From assembly GCA_963920665.1 (NCBI GenBank), contig OY987264.1:21618906-21682905 (forward strand): a stretch of DNA of 64,000 nt. Reading direction: 5' to 3'. Numbering within the stretch: position 1 is the first letter of the stretch; each line of letters begins with the position of its first letter. The DNA is from Straminergon stramineum. Lineage: Eukaryota > Streptophyta > Bryopsida > Hypnales > Calliergonaceae. Made by a program: the position numbers and the translations under genes. The notes beneath the pieces are model-generated. The model made no database searches, was not told where the DNA came from, and saw only the letters and a program-made list of their open reading frames with translations. Positions 17,386 to 57,060 of the stretch are shown one piece after another.

Positions 17386-20300
17386 TTATGTAGAGGCAGT
17401 AAGCTGACTTTGAAGAAAAGTCATCACTGACAATCGCTGCAACATTGCAAGAACATATATTAGTGTAAGCTATCAAGTAAGGGTAGAAAGAAAAACGATC
17501 ACAAAAGCTCTCCATCGATAGAAAACATTTTGATCAACTAGATATGAATATACAAAGTCGTATCTCACTCTTCATACACAAGAGGGCCACTTGTACATAT
17601 AATCATACTGGTTCATCTCCATAACGTACCTTCTTCTCAAGCATTGTGGTATCACCAATTTTTGGAGATGATAAATTTTCCAACTTTTTCAACGCTTCTT
17701 GGAAACCCTCGGTGGCAGCACTTTCATTGCCCAAGGCAAAATCTATATCTGCAACTTTTGCTAATGAAACTGCCACGTCCAAAAGCTGGCCAACAAGAGC
17801 AAAACGGATACGTTAACAAATGATTCTAAGTTTTCATCTCTCATCCAGCAGGCGCTCTAGAAAGACCCATTCGTGACGGTATGTTTTGGAAGGCATGGGA
17901 TCATACTGAAACTCGCGATGTACAAAAGAAAGCAAGAAAATATAAACCTCCAGGAATATATCATATACAATCCATAGAACATAAAGAGGAGCACTTGGAC
18001 CAAAACGTTATACCTGTGGAGACAGGGTAGTGAAATCAGTGGTGGCCTCCAGGCGCACATTGAGGGCCCGTGCATAGAAAGCCCGAGCACTTTCCAAATC
18101 CTGAGCATAGTACTTAAGGTCGCCAAGTTTGTTCAGTGAAACTGACAATGCATGCACCACCTGAGCCCAGTTGTGAGATGGCTCAATTAGTGTGATGATC
18201 AGAGTAACAGCATCCATATAAAAACGAATTTAATCCCTAAATGTCTAGCAGTGCTGTTGGTAGAGCCACTCTCGAAATATGGAAAAATCTATAACCACAA
18301 GTATATACATATTCTCTCATTTTTCATAAAATTACTATATATAGTAAGTTCAAAAGATTAAATAGCAAGCAGGTATGCCACGAGAGGCTCTGTCCCTTGT
18401 AGCACACAGTAACATTAGCTTGCTTTTCAAGTACGTGCCTCCTCAATCTTCCACACATTCACTTCCTCACCAAAATTCGTTTACTAGAACACAGGAAATA
18501 TAATTTTGGTGAATATCAAGAGCTAAATGCTTCTAAGTTGCTTTGACAATGATCTCTGAGTTTGACTACATGGATAATAATTTATAATCATGATTAACAT
18601 CTATTTGACATCGACGGCAGAAGAGTTCTAAGTTTCGTGGAAACCTCGTAGGTTTATACGTGTTGAAAAGAAAAATCTGCATCTAAATTCATAAATTAGA
18701 TTCACCCCCGACTCTCTACGATGTACTTTGAAACCAGCGAGATAACGCTGAATGTACCTCAGCGTCCCTGTCAGAGAGTTTCGTCAGCAATTCTGCACTT
18801 TCCTCATAATTCGCAATAGCTCCATCGGAATCTTGCATGGCTCGACTGCAAATCCAGTGTTGAACCGAAAGTTAATCCTTAGTTTTCTTAAGGGAATAAT
18901 AGTCCTGAGGTACTTACAGTGCCTAAACCGTTCAGATAAACGTGTCGCTGATGCACTAAAGCGGTTGCAGATACAATACAACAACTGAGAAAACAACAGA
19001 GTTTAAAAGCTAAAATTCTAATGTAGGAAGAGCTCGAGTCCAATATTTACCAGCAGTCGCCAAGCATTCCCAGCAATGCCCCCAATTGAGAGCAATTCTT
19101 AGAGGTAGCACCGGATCGTGACAACTCCTCTCGACAGTCCATCACACATAAAGCTAGCCTTGCTTTTGCACTTTCCAGATTCTTTCCCTCAAAAGCCTAC
19201 ATGAAGACACATTAGGAAGTCGCAAACATATTCTGAATGAAAACCGTTCTTGAGCAAAAGGGTGAAAACCACTAATAATTACTACACTACACAAATAAAC
19301 GACAGCGACTGTTCACCAGTAGCAATTAGTTCTTTCATCACCGAGAGATTGTAAGGTACACATGTAGCATCCTCTGGGTTACACCTCTTAAGTAATATAC
19401 GTGATCACTCCTAGGGATGAAGAACAACAACCATGTTACTGAATTTTGGGAAATAGGATACTCACCCTCATGGCTTGCTGCACTAAGAAACTCCCCTGTT
19501 CAATTGAAACATCTGCATACTTCACGGTGCCTGCAGATGCCTCTTCAACAGCAGACTGAGGAGTAGGTCTTCTGAGTCGAGCATGTCCTTCAACAAAACG
19601 GTCCACTAATCCTTGCATGTCGGGATCAGGCTCAATACTGTCAATATCAAGCCCACATAGGGGACAATCTTGAAACCGTGATATGCATGCCCTGTAAAAA
19701 ACGAAGGAAATTGCATTGAAATCGATACTTAATCCCAACGGCCTGGTGACAGCATTGAGAACATATGATACTCCAATCACCCGTTGAATAAAATTGAGAT
19801 TCTTAAAGCCATTGCTTAAAGAAACTAAGTTCACTCCACATTTCCCGATAATCAGAGTAAGCCTACAACAACTCCTTGATTAAGGAAGAGGATACTGAAA
19901 CCGTCAGTGAATTGATCCCGTCTTCTATACTGATCTCTGTTACCAGCAGGGTCTCATCTGTTCATACTTGGATGGACATATTAGCAGATTGGGTGTAAGC
20001 ATAGCTTCGATACATATCTATGGCCACTTATCTTTGAATAGAAATGGGGTTGTCTACTGTCACTAATACTGATCTACAACCTCCCACATTGAAGGTGCAT
20101 CAGTACTTCATACAAAATGATAAATCTCTACAGCTCTTCAGTGCTATCCTCAAATTTATACTCATATGTTCATATGTTAAAATGCACAAAGCGACGTACC
20201 CTCTCCCATATCCCATAAATGTGACACAACAACTGAGTCCCTCAAATTCTATACTATGAAACTACTCGAACGCAGAAGGCAACATTCATTCAAAAACTGA

Positions 20301-20867
20301 GCAACGCAGTTCCCTCATACTAACATAAGTACAAAACAGAATCTTAAGTGAACTGAGAGAAAGGTGACACACCAACCTGCAAAAAATGTGACGGCATGGA
20401 ACACATCGGCTACTATCATACAGAAGAGCTCGGCAAAGCACACAGCTGAAGGGCCCGATCTTAAAAGAAACGGAATCATAACCCAGAGGACATTTTCCTC
20501 CAGCTGCTGCCTCAATAGTTTCTTCTTTCCCGTCCGTCTCATCAGGTGCCTCGTCCCTGTTACTATCCTTACTCTCTCCGTCCTTTCTGCCATAGCCAAA
20601 GGGACATTTTCCTGGTACAGATGCTGCTTCACCCTTCGTTACTTCGGATTGTGCACCTATTGCCTGCTCATCCGCTTCCCCTGTCGCTGATGATTTCTTG
20701 CCAAACCCTAACGGACATGCACTCGCTCCAGTCTTTCCGCCACCATTGTTACTTTCGCGTTCCACTCGAGCCGTCTCATCAGCAATCGCTGCTTCACCAC
20801 CATTGTCACTTTTCGCCACTGGACACTTTTTACCTCCAAAACTCAGCTTCGCGAATGGACAGGCCAT
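17386..20867 (-). CDS. NCA1: NCA1 (NO CATALASE ACTIVITY 1), RING/TPR catalase chaperone (434 aa, 7 exons)
   Basis: Exons, in gene order: 20377-20867, 19466-19691, 19051-19196, 18758-18845, 18014-18160, 17630-17785, 17386-17436. All junctions are GT/AG and phase-consistent. In Arabidopsis NCA1 binds CAT2 and keeps catalase folded and active in cytosol and peroxisomes. The N-terminal 130 residues hold five short Cys-Pro motifs (residues 3, 15, 51, 88, 126; e.g. CPFGYG, CPLGYD). A RING-like finger follows (GPFSCVLCRALLYDSSRC, CRHIFC, then FQDCPLCG across the exon 1-2 junction). Then come the family block YADVSIEQGSFLVQQAMR and TPR-like helices (LGALLGMLGDC, HALSVSLNKLGDLKYY, ALNVR). The tail exon RLSVMTFLQSQLT matches the Arabidopsis end in style. 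The start is the ATG at 20,867: an in-frame TGA lies upstream, and a further-upstream GTG is not needed. Confidence 0.95.
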
Positions 20868-21515
20868 GGCCAAGCCGCACTCCACAACCGCACTTCACAA
20901 GCTGGACGAACCAACCGTCGTAATCTCAAACCCTACAACAGAAGAAATAGAATGCTCCTCTGTATTAGCAGATAAAACTCACGTTTGCGATCAAAGACTC
21001 ACACTCTCAGATTACACAACCCTAACACACTGAAGATCAATCGAAAGTACAATTTCTCAATTTCTCAGAAGTAAAATTTCCCACGAGGCTTTCAACCATA
21101 AAAATTTGCAAGAATATCAAAGGGACCGACCGAAACGCATCCTCAAACTCTCTTGCACCGACTGAAAATTAAAAAATATTACGAGCAGGTGGAAAACTTC
21201 GACTTGACACCACCGACACTACAGATCGCCATATCCAGCGACAAAGAGCTCAAATTGTCGTTTAAAAATAGGGCTAGAGTTAGCATGGAACAGACATAAC
21301 AATCAACGCACCTTGTTTTTGCGTTTGGATCAGTCAGCGAAAGCTCGACCGCGGATGCAGATTCCACCGCAAGTCGATAAGCCTCCTTCGTCTCCTGGCC
21401 TACCAAATTTAGCTTCTCGATTGTCCCAAACAATTTAGAGTGTGCCAAAATTACAGTGGCTCCCTGATAGTGTTGTATTTTGAGAGCATGTCCACCGCTG
21501 CGCGGTCAATTTGTC
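20868..21515 (-). other. NCA1 5' leader with probable intron and a non-ATG open frame
   Basis: An acceptor (polypyrimidine then TAG) precedes 20,932 and a donor AAG|GTGCG follows 21,312, so a leader intron of about 380 bases (21,311 to 20,933) is plausible. The putative leader exon is open from about 21,515 down to the donor, with coding-like text (KLFGTIEKLNLVGQETKEA, then RLAVESASAVELSLTDP), but it has no in-frame ATG. If spliced as proposed it would stop two codons after the junction. It could be an upstream frame started at TTG/CTG, part of another gene, or chance in GC-richer leader DNA. Confidence 0.4.
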
Positions 21516-24850: not shown

Positions 24851-27800
24851 TCATCTCGGAAAATTTCGGCTTACAGCCTTGAGAATCAGCATCACTCCTG
24901 TGGCAGCTATTGCCCCTGTTGCAGTCGCAGCAGGTAGGATATACTTCGTGGTCTCTATTCTCTTGTCAGCTTGATACTTTGCCAATTCCGACTCTTGGTA
25001 GAACTTTGCTTTTCTCGCACTTTCGCACTTAGCATCCTCCAAGGTTTCCTCAAGTTTTTTAACTTGTGACTGGCACTTGTCTCTCTCTTTTTTCAACTCA
25101 CTGAGTTCAGCGAGTAGTTCCTCACATTGGACATGTGAGCTAGAAATAGTATCTTGGAGACTCTTGATGCTAGCGTCAGAACACTTGAGATCAGCCTCCA
25201 GCCTCTCGTTCTTAGAAGATAGAGCTGCAAACATTCACCATGGCAAAAAAACTTAGCAAAAATTTCGTTGTCCTAAGACTTGAGAGCAAGATATATAATT
25301 AATGAAAATTCACTTCAAGGATTGCCACTCTCAGGCATAACCTTGGATTACTAATAAAATGACATGAAGTTAGCACTGGTGTAGTGCTGCTACAAGACCA
25401 TGAAAGCTTATGAATGAAAGCAAAATATGATACACTAGAGATGCAGCTCTGTAAAAACCACTATCAAGGGCACTCTAAACAAATCGTGGGTGACATGATC
25501 TCTTGCTTTCAGAGCACATATCAGTTGCCTATCTTTCCAGTTTGACAATCAATTTCACACGCAAGAATATAGGTTTGAGCAGAGCAACCAGAATAGGGAT
25601 TTACCTTGGATCGCCTGTGCTGCCTCATCTTTCTGGATCTGCAATTCACTTTCCAACAACTCAACCTTGAACGTTAACTCTCCAATATGCTCAGTTAGTT
25701 CCGTAGTATGAGATTCAAAAATGCCCTTCTCAATGTCGAGCCTTTCTGCGGCCTCGGTTGCTTTCGATTTAGCAGCTTCGAGCTCCTCTTGTATTCTTGA
25801 GACATGAGTTTCCCGCTCTTGAAACTTTTCGGTAAACTCCCTAGTTTTAGTGTCTAACTTTCCATCAACTTCAATAGCTCTGCTCTGAGTCACGTCCAGT
25901 TCATGTTGCAATCGCAATACTTCATTCTGAAGGCCATCCACTTTCTCACTGTATTCCTTCGTTCTAGATTCAATTAATGCCGACGCTTCAGAGGATTTTC
26001 TATTCGCAAGTTCAAGCTCCTCCTTCAGGGAACGAATAGTAGTTTCCAAGAGCGGCACTTTTCTCATAGTCTCCTCCTCTTGAAGAATTCTATCTCCTTG
26101 CTCCTTTTCCAGAGACTTAGAAAGCTCAGATGACTTGTCTTTTGCATTAATAAGCTCCTCGCGCAATTCTGAGACCGCTGTGCTCAACTCTTTGACTTCA
26201 GTCTCAAGGTTCTCGGCCTTCGCCTTAGCCATTTCTTTCTGAGAATGCAAATCCGTCAAAGTACCTTCAAGCCGAGCATTCTCCTGCTTCACACGTTGAA
26301 TCTCAAATTCTAACTTCTCAACAACCTGCGAGTACCACCGCATGAGTATGTTCAGTAATCATATAGAAAAATCGCCATCTAGAAACCCATGTATAAACAT
26401 GCTAAACTAATCTTATTTAGTTTAGCAAAGATAATTCCAATTAGCATTCAGAAAAAAATGAAAAACTGGAAGGATAAATCACAAGGCCAACGCCAAAAAA
26501 AAGATTTGTTGAAACCTAAGGTCAGAATAAACACCTCCTTCGTTGTTGAGAGATCTACACCGAGTGTTTCAGTGTCTTTCTCAAAAGCAGCTATCTTTTC
26601 TTGATCAGCAAAGCGAAGCTTTGTCACTTCCTCCAGCTCTCGACTTGACTTGGAGAGGTCCTCTTCCAATCCCCTCTTCTCAGATAGCAAAGAAATTTTC
26701 TCTTCCTCCGCGGTGGCCTTCTCCTGTGACAATCTAGAAGCCCTATCCTTCAAAGCCAGAAACTCTTCTTCCGGTATCTGAGAATCAACAAGCGCCTTAT
26801 TTGCACGTTCAAGTGAATCCACCTCTTTCGTAAGTGCCTTGTTTGTTTCGCCCAAAGTTTGATTGACCTTCTGAGCATCCTCGAGATCTTTTCTGGACTT
26901 CTTCACAGCATCCTCCAAACTCCTCTTTTCTGAAAGGAGAGAATCGTTTTCCTCGGTCAAAGAATCTCTCTCTGCATTCAACTTCGAGTTACTGTTCTCG
27001 GAAATCTCCAATTCCACTTCAAGTCCACGAAATTTACCAACTAGTGTTTCACCTTCTTTCCTAAAGAAATCGGCCTTCTCTTCTGCAACTGTGGCACTGT
27101 TCTGAGCTTCCTGAAGCTCAAGCCTAATCTCACTGAGTCCCCGTTGCAACCTGTCTTTCTCATCGGTAACAACATGTAGTTCTTTCAGAAGTGCAGTTTT
27201 TTCTTGAGTAATCTCTTCCACGTTGTCCTTCAACCTCAGGAAATCTTCCTCGGGGACTTGAGTCTTCCGAAACTCTTCACTCTCAGTTAAGAGAGAATTT
27301 ACCTTCTCCTCTAAGGCATCGATCTTGTCTTTGGCAGCTCGAGCAGTCTTTTCTTCTTCAACAAGGTTCTGCTCTAATGTAGACAGATGATTTTCTCGAC
27401 CTTCCTTCTCTGAAAGGAGACTCTTTCTCTCCTCCATCAAAGCAGAATTCTCCTCACTAAGATTTGAAGCACGTTCTCTCAAAGACACGAACTCGTTCTG
27501 TTTCCCATCCAACTCTTTCTGTCCTCTCACCAGCGATTCAATTTCTTTTTCAAGGGTAACAACCCTCTCGTTTGCAACAGTAGAAGATCTCTCTGCCTCC
27601 TCGAGTTCAACCCTGGAATGAGATACTGTTTCTTCCAGATGTTTCTTCTCAAAGATGAGGGAATCTCTTTCCTTTGCTAGTGCGTCCTGCTCAGATGTTA
27701 CGGCGGCCCTGTCAACTTCAGCTTCATTAGCCTGCATAAGCTCATGTGAGACATTTAGCTTAGTACTGGAACCTGGAATAATTAATTTTCTGAGCATCAC

Positions 27801-50010: not shown

Positions 50011-52963
50011 TCTAAACTACATCTAGGATGTAGCTTCCAAGTAATGTGTTCCCTATAGATTGCCTTCATGAGATGCTAGGCCCCAACATTGAAACACTTC
50101 ATCATGGGATTTTGTCTGTAATTTCTTAATAGTAGTCTTCATGCAAGGGAAACAAATGAGAACTAGAATACTTATTTGTGGTAGAACAACACACTAAAGC
50201 ATATTCACAACCATCAACAATGGTCTATATTAGAAGAAGAATGAGCCCTAAGGAGAGCCAATGAGTTCTAGGAAAGCAAGAAAAGGCGATTGAAACCAAG
50301 AAAAAATGAAAGAAAACCAACACACTACAAGGCTTGAATTGTGTAGGACAATTTCATGATATAATTGATTCTAAAAAAATGGAAAACACTCTTTATATTC
50401 AAATGAATGGAAACTTTGAAAAGGTAGTTATCAAATATCGTGTGGCCACTACCATCTTAGATAACATTATTGAACAAATTAAAAAATATTTAATAATATA
50501 TATTATTATTAATAATTAAATCATTCTTATTTCCCTATATATATTATTTCTTTCAGGCACTATTCTAGTTCACAGACTTGAAACGGCCCTCTTGAGACCT
50601 TGATTGCATTGAGATTCATACATCCATTGTAACTAGCATCCTCCAAAACAAAACCAACAAAAGATTGCAAATATTCACATAAGTGATGGAAAGTCAAAAT
50701 TTAGGTTGAGAAGTTGACTTGCACTTGATCTCTTTAGAATATGTTATCCCAATTACTTATAAGCCTTCTAATTCGTCTATTGTAGCAATATTTACTTTGG
50801 ATGTGGTCTTAGGCTTTAGAGATTCCAATGGTCTAGTTAGGATAGTAATTTTTGAATTTTTTAGAACAATTGAAGATGATTCATGACTTTACCATCAACT
50901 ATACCATATACATAAAAATACCTTCTAATCTATTACCAACTTCCTCTCTAGATGGACAATGGATCTATCTACAAATAGGACAATCTTCAATGCATTTTTT
51001 TGTAATTGTGGCTTATATGAGTCGACCCCACAATTAGACACAACAAAGTTGTCAAAGCCAAAGGTTAGTCATCCAACAAAACCAAAGTGAAGAAAATCAA
51101 TAACATGTGATGCACTAAGGATTCCGTTTAGCTAAAAAATGTGAAACCATAATAGAATCTTGAACAAAGCAACAACGCCTGCCTTAAACATCACTACAAA
51201 TAATACACCAACTAGCAATTAATGCACTCACCATAAATAAGGTTGTCGGTGAAGCAAGACAAAATTGTAGGGAAGAAAATCCTTTCTTGGGAGACTTTTG
51301 CATAGAGGCCTCACATTTTGAATACCACAACTTGAAGCAAACAAAAAGCTTCTCATCAATTTCACACAAAATAATCTCAAGACTCCAAAGGACAATAGTT
51401 CAAGAAAATGACATGATGACATCCACTTAGTAAACATTCGTTTTGACAATGTGCACCAAATTAATACATTCCCTTCAACTCAAAAAGATTGGGGCATTGG
51501 AAGATTCTTCCCACCATAATATTGAAACAACTAACAACAAATGGATCAAAGAAGTACAACGGGACATGGTCCCACACATTTTTGAAGTCAATATGTACAT
51601 GCATGTTTGTAGAAGAGAGGGCCATTGCTGTCAAATCACAATGTCAATTTCTACCATGCATCAATTTCCCAATTTAAATCTCAATTTCCATTTGCTCCAT
51701 GATGGTGCCTTATGAAAAGAAACTCCACTTGATTGTGATCCATTTCAAAAACAAAACCTTACACACTCTTGCCCACAAAAAAGAAACAATCTACTATCAA
51801 TACACATGATTCTCAAACTTTCAAATATCATAGTTACTTCACACAATTTCCATAAAGTGAATGCCAAGACAAGCTACAATCCAATTTTGACTCTCAACAA
51901 GAAACAAAACAAAATTCAAAACTCAAAAAGCCATGTTCAAATGTGTATTGAATTACTAACAATGGTACACCAAGTTTCACTAGCCACAAAGTTGAAAAAA
52001 CATTTGCACCACCAACATATACCTATATTGGGACAAAATCCATAATGAATAGGAACTTGCAAGGGTTTGGCAAATAGTCTACAAAAGGCCATTGAAGGCA
52101 CACCAAGATGCCCTTCCTTCGACCACAACACACTTGCACAAATATAGTAGCTACTATGGCATAGCAATTGAATAAACAATAGAACACCCAAACTATGCCC
52201 TATCCAAGAACAAAAGCTAGAAAAACCAATGGACAAGACTACATGATATGATCTTCATTCTCACAAATAGTAAAGCAAGTCAACAAACCTGCAGATTCTA
52301 TCATAGGAGATATTTCACCTCCAACTCCTCACTGCCTTGTCAAATCTCACTCAAAAGCGTGTCTTCATTGTCATCCTTTGGGGAAACTGCAATGAGAATG
52401 ACCAAATAGACAAGGGAATCAATCCCTTTATAACACTACTTGAGTACTCCAAATTCACCATTCCAAATTGAATGGATCCATTGCCACTCACTTGACAAGG
52501 AATAAATTCACACATCAACCAATCTTCCAATGTCCTATAAGAAAAAAGTCTATACTATGATTCCATGCAAGCAAAGAAAACTTTCCATGGAAGCAAACAT
52601 ACCAAAAGAAATGTTGGAGCTAGGCTAGGTAATGGTTTAGAATAAACTTGCATACAAACGAAATGCGTAGGCAAGATGGCTGATAATCTCAAGTGTTCTA
52701 CTATTACTTCAAAAAAAGTTGGAGTGATACTTTTCATCAAAAGCATTAGCAAGAGATGAATTGGAGGGGCAAAACCAAGGTTGATAAAAAGCAAAATAGG
52801 TATTAGAGCAATATACATTGTTGTGTTTGCAAACCATTGTAATCACCTTAAATGCCTAAATGAGAATCTAGAAAGCTACATAAAAGTAAGAATGTTGGCA
52901 TGTTTAAGGCAATACCAAATTTGGTGGACAAGTACAATCCATCTCAAACGACAACACTTCTCG
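50011..52963. other. AT-rich region downstream of the HNL receptor
   Basis: No supported gene. A perfect 18-base AT palindrome lies at 50,491-50,508. Several 60-100 codon minus-strand frames (51.2-52.8 kb) are hydrophobic and without family resemblance. If the receptor's last donor at 53,021 is used, a small terminal exon would have to lie here, but I could not identify it. Confidence 0.45.
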
Positions 52964-55900
52964 TTACTCAAATGAAATGCAACAAGTAAGAATTATGATG
53001 ATTAATGTAAGCCGAACTGACCTTGGGAGAGAGATGTGGCAACCACGTTGCTCAAGCTCTAGGAGGAAGAGTTCCTGACTTGCATCCATCACTTCCAATG
53101 CATCACATCCAATTAAGTTCAATGTTGATAGTCGAGTCAAGTTTGTGATTGACCCTGGGAGGCGCTTCAAGTTCTTAGAGCCTTGTAGTTCAAGATGTTC
53201 AAGGTGGATCAATTGGCTAAGAGATGAAGGGAGCTCCTCCACTTTGTTCATATCATGAATTTCCAAATTCTTCAACGAGCACAATTGCCCAAACATGTCA
53301 AGCAACCCTTCCAATTTCTCCATGGAATGAAGATAGAGACTTTCTAACTTCACCAACCTTGACAATGAGGCTGGAAGCTTCTTCAAGTAACTCCAGTGAG
53401 CATCCTTCACCGTGAGACTTTGGAGTTCAGTGAGATCTCCCAAACATTCAGGCAACTCCTCAAGATGGAATCTATTGTGAAATTCAAGAACCTTGAGGCT
53501 AGGGCACATGGGAAAACCAATTGTAGAAATAGATGGAAGCACCAACTCTTGAAGATGAGAGGACAAATTCTTAACTACTGGATTCCATAACCTTTCAACC
53601 TTCTCTTCTGCAATCTTCGTCCTCAATTCCCCAAGAAAAAGGCCGGGAATGAAGTTATTACAATTGTGTAGATTGAGTTCCTCAAGTTGTGACAATTGTC
53701 CAAATGATTCGGATGGATTCTCTATGACCAAGTTCTTGCAATTGAACATATTCAATGTTCGAAGTTTGTGTAATTTGCCCAAGGATTTAATTGGTAGTTG
53801 AAGGCTGTTACAATTCACTGACTGAAGCTCAATCAAGTGATCCATTTGTCTTGTAAACTCAACCATGCTCCTCAAACTATAGCAAAGGCTTAGGTAAAGG
53901 TACCCAAGGTTAGTCAATTGGCTGACACATGAAGGAACCTCCTTCAATGTCCAACATCCAAAAAGTTTGAGTGTTTTAAGATTTTCCAAACGCCCAATCT
54001 CACATGGGAGACTTCGTAGATTTCCACAATAGGAAACATCAAGCTCCAAAAGGTGAACCAACTTGCCAATTGATGCCGGAAGTTCTTCTAGTTTATAACA
54101 ACTTCTTACATGTAGCACACGCAACCCAGTACAAAACCCAATCGCTTCAATAGCTTGAGGTATAACCTTGTCTTGAATCGCAACCAAAGAAAGCCAAGAT
54201 AGCTCCTTCGGACATTTCCTTAAAAGAAAGTCCACAACCTCAATTCTACAATTGCTCAAATTTAACAACCTCAAGCTATCAAAGTGTTGGATTGTCATTT
54301 CTCCTTTTCCATTCGGATTTGCTTGTGATGGAAGTGCCACTACTCTCGATTGACACTCTTGTAATGATATCCCTTCAATGGTTCTTGAGCCCTAACAAAG
54401 ACCATCCAACAAAAAGAAATAAGATCCATGATATTCAAATTCATAAAATAAAGTAAACAACATACAATAATAATCCTTCCAAACATCAAAGTTATGAATA
54501 ATTAGTTATGTACATAAGGAGATTTCTACTTTCCATCACACAAGGATTACCTCATCATCTTCCAAAAACCTCTCAATGTCATCAACCTCCCACAATCGAG
54601 TCACCTTTCTCAATGACTCATGTAATCCCTTCAATGATAAATCCCTTACAATTCTCCGACCCATATCCCTCAATTGGTCATGGATTGTATAAGGATGACT
54701 CCATGTATTGTATTTACCAACTTTGATTAGAGATCTCTCACGTAGAATCTCCAATCCTGTAGGTGAACGCCAAATCCATCCTATGGATCGTTCATCCAAA
54801 GAGCATGATTCCTCACAAAAGAAACAAGCAAAGTCCAAAAACATGCGCTTATGGTTATTGTCCAAATCCTCATAGCTAATCATTAGTCTCTTCCACAAAA
54901 CTTCATTCTCATCACCCCCATCAAAAGATCGGGCTGTGCGTAATTTCTGAAGTGCCTCTTCCCATATTTCTTTTTGTTTTCCAATAGAGTACCTACGTTG
55001 CTTATGTAAATGTTGCCCAATAACCTCCAAGCTTAGAGGGAGACCACAACATGCCTTGGCTACATTCACAGCCAAAACCGCAAAGTCTTTCATCTCATCA
55101 TCTCCACCCTCAATTCCATGGAATGCATGGTACTGAAACAACTCCAAAGCTTTAGAATCATTTAGGAGTTCCACATCTATGATTTCCACATCCTTCAATC
55201 CTTCCATATCAATAAGATCATCCAAGACTTGACGGTTGCGACATGTCACAATTACTCGGCTGCCACGTGAAAGGTTGTTTTGAAATGTAGGCACTTGCAA
55301 ATCTTTGAGGGTTTTGGACTCTCTCACATTGTCAATTACAAGCAACACTCTACTTCCCATTATGCAGTGTCGGATCCTTTCACACTCATTCTCACTCTCA
55401 CATGTTTTGCTAGCCACCTTTCCACCACATATCTCCTTGAACAATTGCCTTTTGGCACTAGCCAAATCGTCTAGTCTCACATCTTGTAAGAAACATGCTT
55501 TATCATAAGACTTGGCTTGCATATTAAACACAAATTTGCTTATCGTTGTCTTTCCAATCCCACCCATTCCAACAAGGCCAATGATGGAAACTGAACGTAG
55601 CTTCTCACAAATCATACTTTGCATGTCATCCATTCCCACCAATTTGTTGGGGAGTTCCAATAGATGATGCTGTCGCTTCTTTTCATGAACTTTGATCACC
55701 TCTGAGATGCATGTCGTCAATGATAGATAGCTGGAATTTTGTTTGCTTTGTGGTTTACAAATATCAAAATGACCTGCAGCCACTGCCAAAAATCCATGCC
55801 CCTCCTGTCGAGCAGATTTCTCTGGGACAACTAGTCTTCCCTGTCCATCAAGCACCAATCATTCAACAACAAAAAATTACTACAAGGTCCAGAAATAAGA

Positions 55901-57060
55901 AATGCAAAGACAAATCAATGAACTAAACTGAATACTAGAAATTCAACTCAAGACAAAAGCAAGAAACAAAAGGAGATGCTCACATGTGATGTAGCATGCG
56001 TCTCGCCAATATTATAACAAATCCACTGATTGCTGTTTTCTTTGTATATGTTTTCAAATTTAGAGTTGAGTCGACAAACTTCAGGAGAAAATTCCTCGAG
56101 ACAACTCATACAAGCGCCCTTTGAAGTAGAGGGATTCAATGGTAAAGCATCAACTAGTACTCCAGCATGAGGAGTTGCATAAAAATGGAAAGCCCGTAAA
56201 TTATGGAGTAAATTCGAAACCTTTTCGTGATTTTGAAAGTCTTCAGACCCGGTTACAACAATTTGCTTGGCAACCAAGCCTCCAAAACTATGGCACACAA
56301 ACACCACTGGACAATCATGTTGGCCTATATCTGCAGAGGCCATCTGTTGAACAAGACTCTCTCCCAAAATATATGGCTCCATCCTCCCAGTAGTTGATGT
56401 CCGCATAACGTTAGCATCATAAGAAAGAGAGAGAATTCTTGCTTGCGGAAATTCCTCCGCCAACCATGTCTCCGGCCAACAATTGTCAAGTTCCCCATTC
56501 CTTGCCAACCAAGTCCTCCAATATGCTTCTTTAGACCCATCAAACTCTAGGCCATGAATGAAGACTATTTCAACATCCACTCGATCCTGGGGCTCATGGA
56601 ATAAATAAACAGCTTCATTCAACTGCAAAATAGAACATGAATGAAAACTTGGAAATTCATTCATTGCTTGTGACATCCCATTCCTTGATGATGAAATGTA
56701 AGTTTCTCCATACAAAGCACAATATAGAATCAGAAAGTATGTACCTCCTTCCCATGAGTAGAATTGGTAGTCCTAGGTGAAGAGGTCGAGGCAATTGTAC
56801 CTAATTCTCATTGGCAAACATGACATCAAAACCTTGAATGAGGAAACCACATCAAGCACATAATGAACCAAACAAGAAAAAGTTCCTTCAACCCCAATGT
56901 CAACTTCTAATAAAGTGCCCACTAATACGAAGAGAAGGTTGAGACTATGAAATGAACCTCCAGAACTGTACGACAAGATTGCATTTCGCCATAGCTCACT
57001 TAGCCGAGTCAACATAGAGTCTTTGTCATCACCAACTTTCTTTTGACTTTCTTGTGCCAT
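52964..57060 (-). CDS. Hydrolase-NBS-LRR (HNL) immune receptor, about 1,190 aa
   Basis: Exons in gene order: 57071-56833 (first Met at 57,060), 56622-55984, 55840-54551, 54391-52964. All are joined in phase. Exon 2 is a SERAC1-like alpha/beta-hydrolase: IVFIHGL (oxyanion loop), WPETWLAEEFPQARILSLSY, nucleophile elbow CHSFGG (Ser codon at 56,289-56,287), FYATPHAG. Its end continues in exon 3 (RLVVPEKSAR, GHFDICKP, with the presumed catalytic His). Exon 3 then carries NB-ARC: P-loop GMGGIGKTT, kinase-2 LLVIDNV, RNBS-B GSRVIVTCRN, GLPLSLE, and IHD in place of MHD. Exon 4 starts GSRTIEGISL, as TIR-NLR genes do after NB-ARC, and encodes about 14 leucine-rich repeats (e.g. LEELPASIGKLVHLLELDVS). 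Odd points: the first Gly of the elbow is Cys, and a donor (AAG|GTCAGT, 53,021) near the 3' end may lead to another exon. The extreme N-terminus is unresolved. The role is probably intracellular pathogen sensing. Confidence 0.92.

Follow-up and report, generated by a model that had tools for sequence, protein, structure and literature searches.

The HNL class of intracellular immune receptors, also referred to as Hyd-NLRs (hydrolase-containing nucleotide-binding leucine-rich-repeat receptors, NLRs), was named in 2012 from Marchantia polymorpha, with transcribed members described in the sections of that paper on the class (Xue et al., PMC3352924). According to the parts of later reports that concern it, hydrolase NLRs also occur in the mosses Ceratodon and Sphagnum (PMC11218826; PMC10952240), two Marchantia hydrolase domains elicit responses in Nicotiana that resemble the hypersensitive response (HR) (PMC11218826), and no such receptors were found when ferns were surveyed (PMC12512272); their biochemistry is described as an open question (PMC10952240). 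Here, we describe a gene from a 64-kb stretch of the genome of the moss Straminergon stramineum (the whole of which we call the window), which encodes an alpha/beta-hydrolase, an NB-ARC domain, a winged helix and leucine-rich repeats (LRRs) in a single frame on the minus strand (57060-52351). Its domains, intron phases and homologues support the assignment to the HNL class proposed in a first-pass annotation of the window, and we regard this assignment as almost certain; the gene adds a member to a class that is already known. That annotation had called the class described from Marchantia and largely unstudied biochemically; this is dated, given the moss members and HR-like responses in the relevant passages of the literature (PMC10952240; PMC11218826).

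In the order of its domains, the gene resembles the Marchantia HNL genes, and it shares with them three phase-0 introns, two before the nucleotide-binding site (NBS) and one after it, a likeness that rests on the number and phase of the introns and not on their exact positions (PMC3352924). The differences are threefold, as far as the passages of Xue et al. on this class go: no mosses were found to have it, whereas our gene is a moss gene; the latter has an additional phase-1 intron after residue 34; and where the Marchantia genes have an intron between hydrolase and NBS, it has none, its second phase-0 intron lying instead inside the hydrolase, before the predicted catalytic histidine. The Hyd-NLRs of Ceratodon, Sphagnum and Marchantia described in the corresponding sections of later papers fall into the same class as the window gene, mosses included (PMC11218826; PMC10952240).

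The bulk of the hydrolase is encoded by exon 3 (55984..56622, minus strand, as are all features of the gene; residues 54-266), with its HG, CHSFGG and PH motifs and the predicted catalytic acid. Exon 4 (54551..55840; residues 267-696) opens with the remainder of the hydrolase, to which its histidine belongs, and continues through the NB-ARC domain and the winged helix in one open stretch, and exon 5 (53022..54391) encodes the LRRs. The intron phases after exons 1 to 4 are 1, 0, 0 and 0, the phase-0 introns falling after residues 53, 266 and 696, and the phase at 53022 is 2. When the exons are joined, the reading frame contains no internal stops, and each modelled intron is bounded by GT and AG.

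The 1171-residue model was searched against Pfam, a check suggested in the first-pass annotation, and the matches were to NB-ARC (E 5.1e-27), several LRR families, the winged-helix family WHD_ROQ1 (E 3.9e-8) and, barely over its cut-off (21.6 bits against 20.3), the ‘putative serine esterase’ family DUF676; no TIR, CC or RPW8 family was among the matches. The NB-ARC match (54869..55618; residues 341-590) includes the P-loop GMGGIGKTT at 55570-55544, and we take LLVIDNV to be its kinase-2 motif, GLPL to be the motif of that name and IHD, further on at residue 652, to be a variant of the MHD motif. For a homologue that is 53% identical, the predicted structure has an alpha/beta-hydrolase fold. 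The first-pass annotation had labelled the domain SERAC1-like; by these results it is of the DUF676 type. The top PDB rows for a homologue's model are the TIR-NLRs RPP1 and Roq1. The resemblance to these two receptors extends to the winged helix of the window protein with its match to WHD_ROQ1, but unlike them it carries a hydrolase, and no TIR domain was matched. The NB-ARC domain of HNL receptors counts as closer to TIR-NLRs than to CC-NLRs, a point on which these two matches may bear. The EDS1 family is defined by a lipase-like domain and, after it, an EP domain, without an NB-ARC domain; in the window protein, it is NB-ARC and LRRs that follow the hydrolase, which sets it apart from this family. 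In fungal NLRs of the SesB type, the nucleotide-binding and repeat domains differ from those of the window protein. Their SesB-like effector domains nevertheless belong to the same alpha/beta-hydrolase superfamily and likewise occupy the N-terminus, according to the passages describing them (PMC9815663).

Protein searches scored only candidates that share words with the query, and the matches listed are the best 120 for the protein and for the Riccia search and the best 45 for the hydrolase. Among them, a Ceratodon purpureus protein (38% identity over 92%) comes closest of those with a name, followed by proteins from Sphagnum and then from the liverworts Calypogeia and Riccia, an order that makes a moss the most likely host; no protein from Marchantia or Physcomitrium was named among these listed matches. 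A PDB sequence search with the hydrolase yielded no matches up to E 1, NCBIfam yielded none, and PADLOC yielded a single model, PDLC02918 ‘DUF626_VIII’ (E 3.8e-8), which matches the hydrolase. A distant hydrolase relative from a metagenome (P0163, 404 residues) carries CTD9 of prokaryotic ABC-three-component systems; together with the PADLOC match, this suggests that similar hydrolases may serve in bacterial defence.

By alignment and fold order, a complete catalytic triad is predicted in the window copy. The nucleophile would be Ser165 (56287..56289, codon AGT) in the motif C-H-S-F-G-G, the acid Glu260 (56002..56004), which is predicted from the alignment and from its place at the end of a late strand in the homologue's model, and the histidine His290 (55769..55771, codon CAT).

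We favour, with moderate confidence, the reading that the gene encodes an NLR whose output domain is the hydrolase, which is probably catalytic in this copy. That the hydrolase is the output module appears likely, in line with the signalling or executor role inferred for it in the first-pass annotation; whether this output would also need catalysis in the window copy we consider evenly balanced. In the resting state, the LRRs and an ADP-bound NB-ARC domain would keep the receptor off. Recognition of a pathogen molecule by the LRRs would then cause the NB-ARC domain to swap its nucleotide and to oligomerise, as in TIR-NLR resistosomes, and the oligomer would bring the hydrolase domains together, leading to an immune output and cell death. 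In the window copy, this output would most likely be a serine-hydrolase activity with a lipid, an ester or a thioester as its substrate. This reading draws support from the presence of the triad residues, the constraint on exon 3, the strongest among the three exons bootstrapped below, and the HR-like responses to two Marchantia hydrolase domains, as given in the passages on these experiments (PMC11218826).

The chief rival is a pseudo-hydrolase, whose preserved pocket would bind a partner protein or a ligand, the latter lipid-like or a small molecule, and which would signal by conformation or oligomerisation, with no requirement for the serine. The lipase-like proteins of the EDS1 family are thought to signal through such a preserved pocket, conformation or oligomerisation. 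For the window gene, we consider this explanation somewhat unlikely. The hydrolase is present in 94 of the best 120 protein matches, and in the resulting 95 domains, that of the window included, the nucleophile column holds Ser 67 times, Gly 17 times, Cys nine times, and Asp and Thr once each. In a wider alignment of 198 rows (the window and 197 of 277), the counts are Ser 110, Gly 58, Cys 16, Asp 2 and Thr 1, with 11 gaps, and in 208 rows that include 23 other loci of the same genome, they are Ser 119, Gly 70, Cys 16, Asp 2 and Thr 1. The Riccia search contributed 57 rows, 47 of them with a letter in this column; 36 of these have Gly, of which 35 are from Riccia, and four more Riccia rows have Ser. 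Judging from this residue, many of the relatives cannot be conventional serine hydrolases.

Parsimony on the 208-row tree requires at least 16 changes in the nucleophile column, and 12 on a first tree of 137 rows, each count coming from one quick tree with many weak forks. Three of 140 rows had been dropped from the first tree; the second lacks the 12 of 198 rows with fewer than 150 residues, one row without a letter in the column and the weak own-genome matches L034-L037, as well as L009, which is the window gene itself, and L033, which is a second piece of L015. On the same 208-row tree, the acid column E260 changes 12 times, compared with no change for G168, one for G167 and two each for H76, K172 and P204, a contrast that speaks for a pseudo-hydrolase; H205 and H290 lie between with six and seven changes. 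The nucleophile is not the only labile column, however, given that V271 changes 13 times and D122 and F166, with 15 changes each, are roughly as labile. Other observations also speak against a pseudo-hydrolase: 166 of 173 rows retain His290, which would be odd had catalysis never mattered; rows with Tyr at position 164, mostly from Sphagnum, have the serine in 50 of 54 cases; the cysteine of 16 rows could still serve as a nucleophile; and the serine is kept by the window copy and by five stand-alone genes of its own genome. Five Ceratodon proteins with the hydrolase-NB-ARC arrangement (P0003, P0011, P0015, P0018 and P0025) are labelled ‘ZZ-type domain-containing’ in their sources and fall into a tree group of 24 rows, all with Gly at the nucleophile.

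Several points weigh against the catalytic reading. The first residue of the nucleophile motif in the window copy is Cys (CHSFG), where the textbook motif has Gly. That relatives have repeatedly lost the nucleophile speaks against a general mechanism based on catalysis, and within the same genome it has been lost from 12 of the 16 hydrolase-NB-ARC loci, the window included, which have Gly in its place, the other four having Ser. Ten of these 12 Gly-type loci are free of stops in their exon 3 match, implying that such genes are kept without a nucleophile, and among the other fused Ser-type loci, an undamaged exon 3 is seen in L010 alone, L012 having two stops and L015 a 2-bp deletion; stops in the exon 3 match were further found in L011, L013 and the stand-alone L019. 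The codon at the nucleophile, read in 21 of 24 loci, is AGT in the window, AGT or AGC for Ser in general, and GGT or GGG for Gly. The repeated loss appears to be new: the passages of the Hyd-NLR papers on these domains do not mention the state of their catalytic residues (PMC11218826; PMC10952240), and a literature search outside subscription papers and preprints, which makes for a weak negative, found no prior account of catalytic-residue loss in hydrolase NLRs.

For the class as a whole, it is possible, though we lean against it, that the N-terminus of bryophyte HNL proteins is a ligand- or partner-binding pseudo-hydrolase, which lost its serine many times under a conserved pocket; one genome would then contain members with enzymatic activity, the window gene among them, next to others that lack it, and the two kinds might act as functional partners. 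The presence of Ser- and Gly-type relatives in one genome constitutes a natural experiment on the need for catalysis, and if catalysis were not needed, the HNL class would work unlike a receptor with an enzymatic output.

An integrated decoy, in which the hydrolase would be a bait that mimics a stand-alone hydrolase targeted by pathogens, with the output coming from the NB-ARC domain or from partner receptors, appears clearly unlikely. In its favour, five stand-alone genes related to the receptor N-terminus (L046-L050, contigs C2 and C9) exist beside the 16 fused loci and retain Ser, Glu and His, although exon 3 of one of them, L047, is interrupted by an in-frame TGA; they end 62-75 codons past the start of an exon-4-like match. 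Ceratodon also has stand-alone relatives among the best 45 listed, and catalytic loss would be tolerable in a decoy. However, in the eight homologues examined the hydrolase is N-terminal, the usual place of the executor, no TIR, CC or RPW8 family was matched in addition, and Marchantia hydrolase domains elicit HR-like responses on their own, according to the passages on that assay (PMC11218826). The stand-alone genes all retain the serine (5/5), and in the window genome and Ceratodon together it is found in 7 of 39 fused and 11 of 12 stand-alone rows (Fisher p 7e-6; ambiguous loci L014, L028 and L032 left out, and two of the 12 stand-alone rows, P0142 and P0157, bearing the same Ceratodon gene name). 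We dropped the generalisation that fused copies lose the serine and stand-alone copies keep it, and do not claim this contrast, because the residue differs in none of the three kinship-independent pairs on supported branches.

That the window gene is a decaying, functionless copy is very unlikely. Three further copies lie on the same strand within about 100 kb, right of the window (contig C2, 21.71-21.78 Mb), and two of them carry damage, a 2-bp deletion in exon 3 in the case of L040 and the absence of the NB-ARC domain in that of L039, while L038 is intact in the parts compared. Between copies, the introns (0.86-0.91) are about as similar as the exons (0.84-0.98), as might be expected of decay. 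The window copy itself is nevertheless free of stops with GT and AG at all modelled introns, and the ratio of nonsynonymous to synonymous substitution rates (dN/dS) over exons 1-5 is 0.66 and 0.59 against two of the neighbouring copies; none of the 1000 bootstraps of either comparison reached 1. Among the three bootstrapped exons, the constraint is strongest in exon 3 (0.43 against L038, 0.44 against L040). For exon 4 (0.78 and 0.59), it is unclear against L038, where 140 of 1000 bootstraps are at or above 1, a point in favour of decay; for exon 5 (0.70 and 0.66), it is borderline against the same copy (25 of 1000). The shortness of exons 1 and 2 precludes a verdict on them (0.99 and 0.53).

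That two adjacent genes, a hydrolase and an NB-ARC-LRR gene, were mistakenly joined is scarcely conceivable and was rejected, even though stand-alone hydrolase genes occur in the same genome, as the end of the hydrolase and the NB-ARC domain share the uninterrupted exon 4, 15 of 23 other loci share this arrangement and a protein from a public assembly, P0121, runs in one frame from the hydrolase over the exon 3/4 border to the first P-loop residues. The open reading frame (ORF) at 54536-55858 (440 codons) holds both the hydrolase end AGHFDICKP and the P-loop, with no intron between them. The fusion is therefore physical and independent of the 55,984/55,840 splice, a junction that lies within the hydrolase and not at its border with the NB-ARC domain. 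Of the remaining loci examined in this 326-Mb genome, 7 of 23 end without a P-loop and 1 of 23 has no match there. Among the best 45 hydrolase relatives listed, many of which are uncurated metagenome ORFs, 25 show a donor-like V-R or V-S end at the position where exon 3 ends, 14 show the start V/M-Q-L/I, and 12 show both. The exon joins, the uninterrupted exon 4 and the Pfam matches thus bear out the single phase-consistent frame of hydrolase, NB-ARC and LRRs that the first-pass annotation had described.

That annotation had placed the gene at 52964..57060; its start, motifs and in-phase junctions hold, but its end is doubtful, and exon 2 was missing. Exon 1 (56958..57060; residues 1-34) begins with the ATG at 57060, just downstream of a conserved TTTTTGTAG, which is possibly the end of an intron in the 5' untranslated region, and its donor GT is kept in all three neighbouring copies. 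Joining it from this donor (56957) directly to 56622 breaks the frame and was rejected; the 56-bp exon 2 (56745..56800; residues 35-53), whose acceptor and donor are likewise kept in 3 of 3 neighbouring copies, restores it. Further in-frame GT sites are present in the stretch between exons 1 and 3, and exon 2 is our best model, short of proof.

At the other end, 52964 was rejected as the certain end of exon 5, since a GT donor at 53021 is kept in all four aligned copies. The ORF end at 52964 is probably a read-through into an intron, with splicing from this donor to a putative exon 6 (52351..52534), which would encode a short C-terminal tail and whose acceptor AG is likewise shared by all four copies; the alternative is that exon 5 continues as far as the stop at 52964. 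Just before this last donor, 11 bp are present in L039 and L040 and absent from the window and L038, so that the copies differ in the reading frame of their last exon and in their C-terminal tail.

Elsewhere, Rfam and tRNA searches across the window gave no matches. An ORF at 20286-20894 (minus strand) contains repeated motifs resembling CPFGYGRK and CPLGFGKK and has no Pfam match. Two long coiled-coil-like ORFs at 25555-27800, also on the minus strand and with weak Pfam matches below the cut-off, are perhaps exons of one gene.
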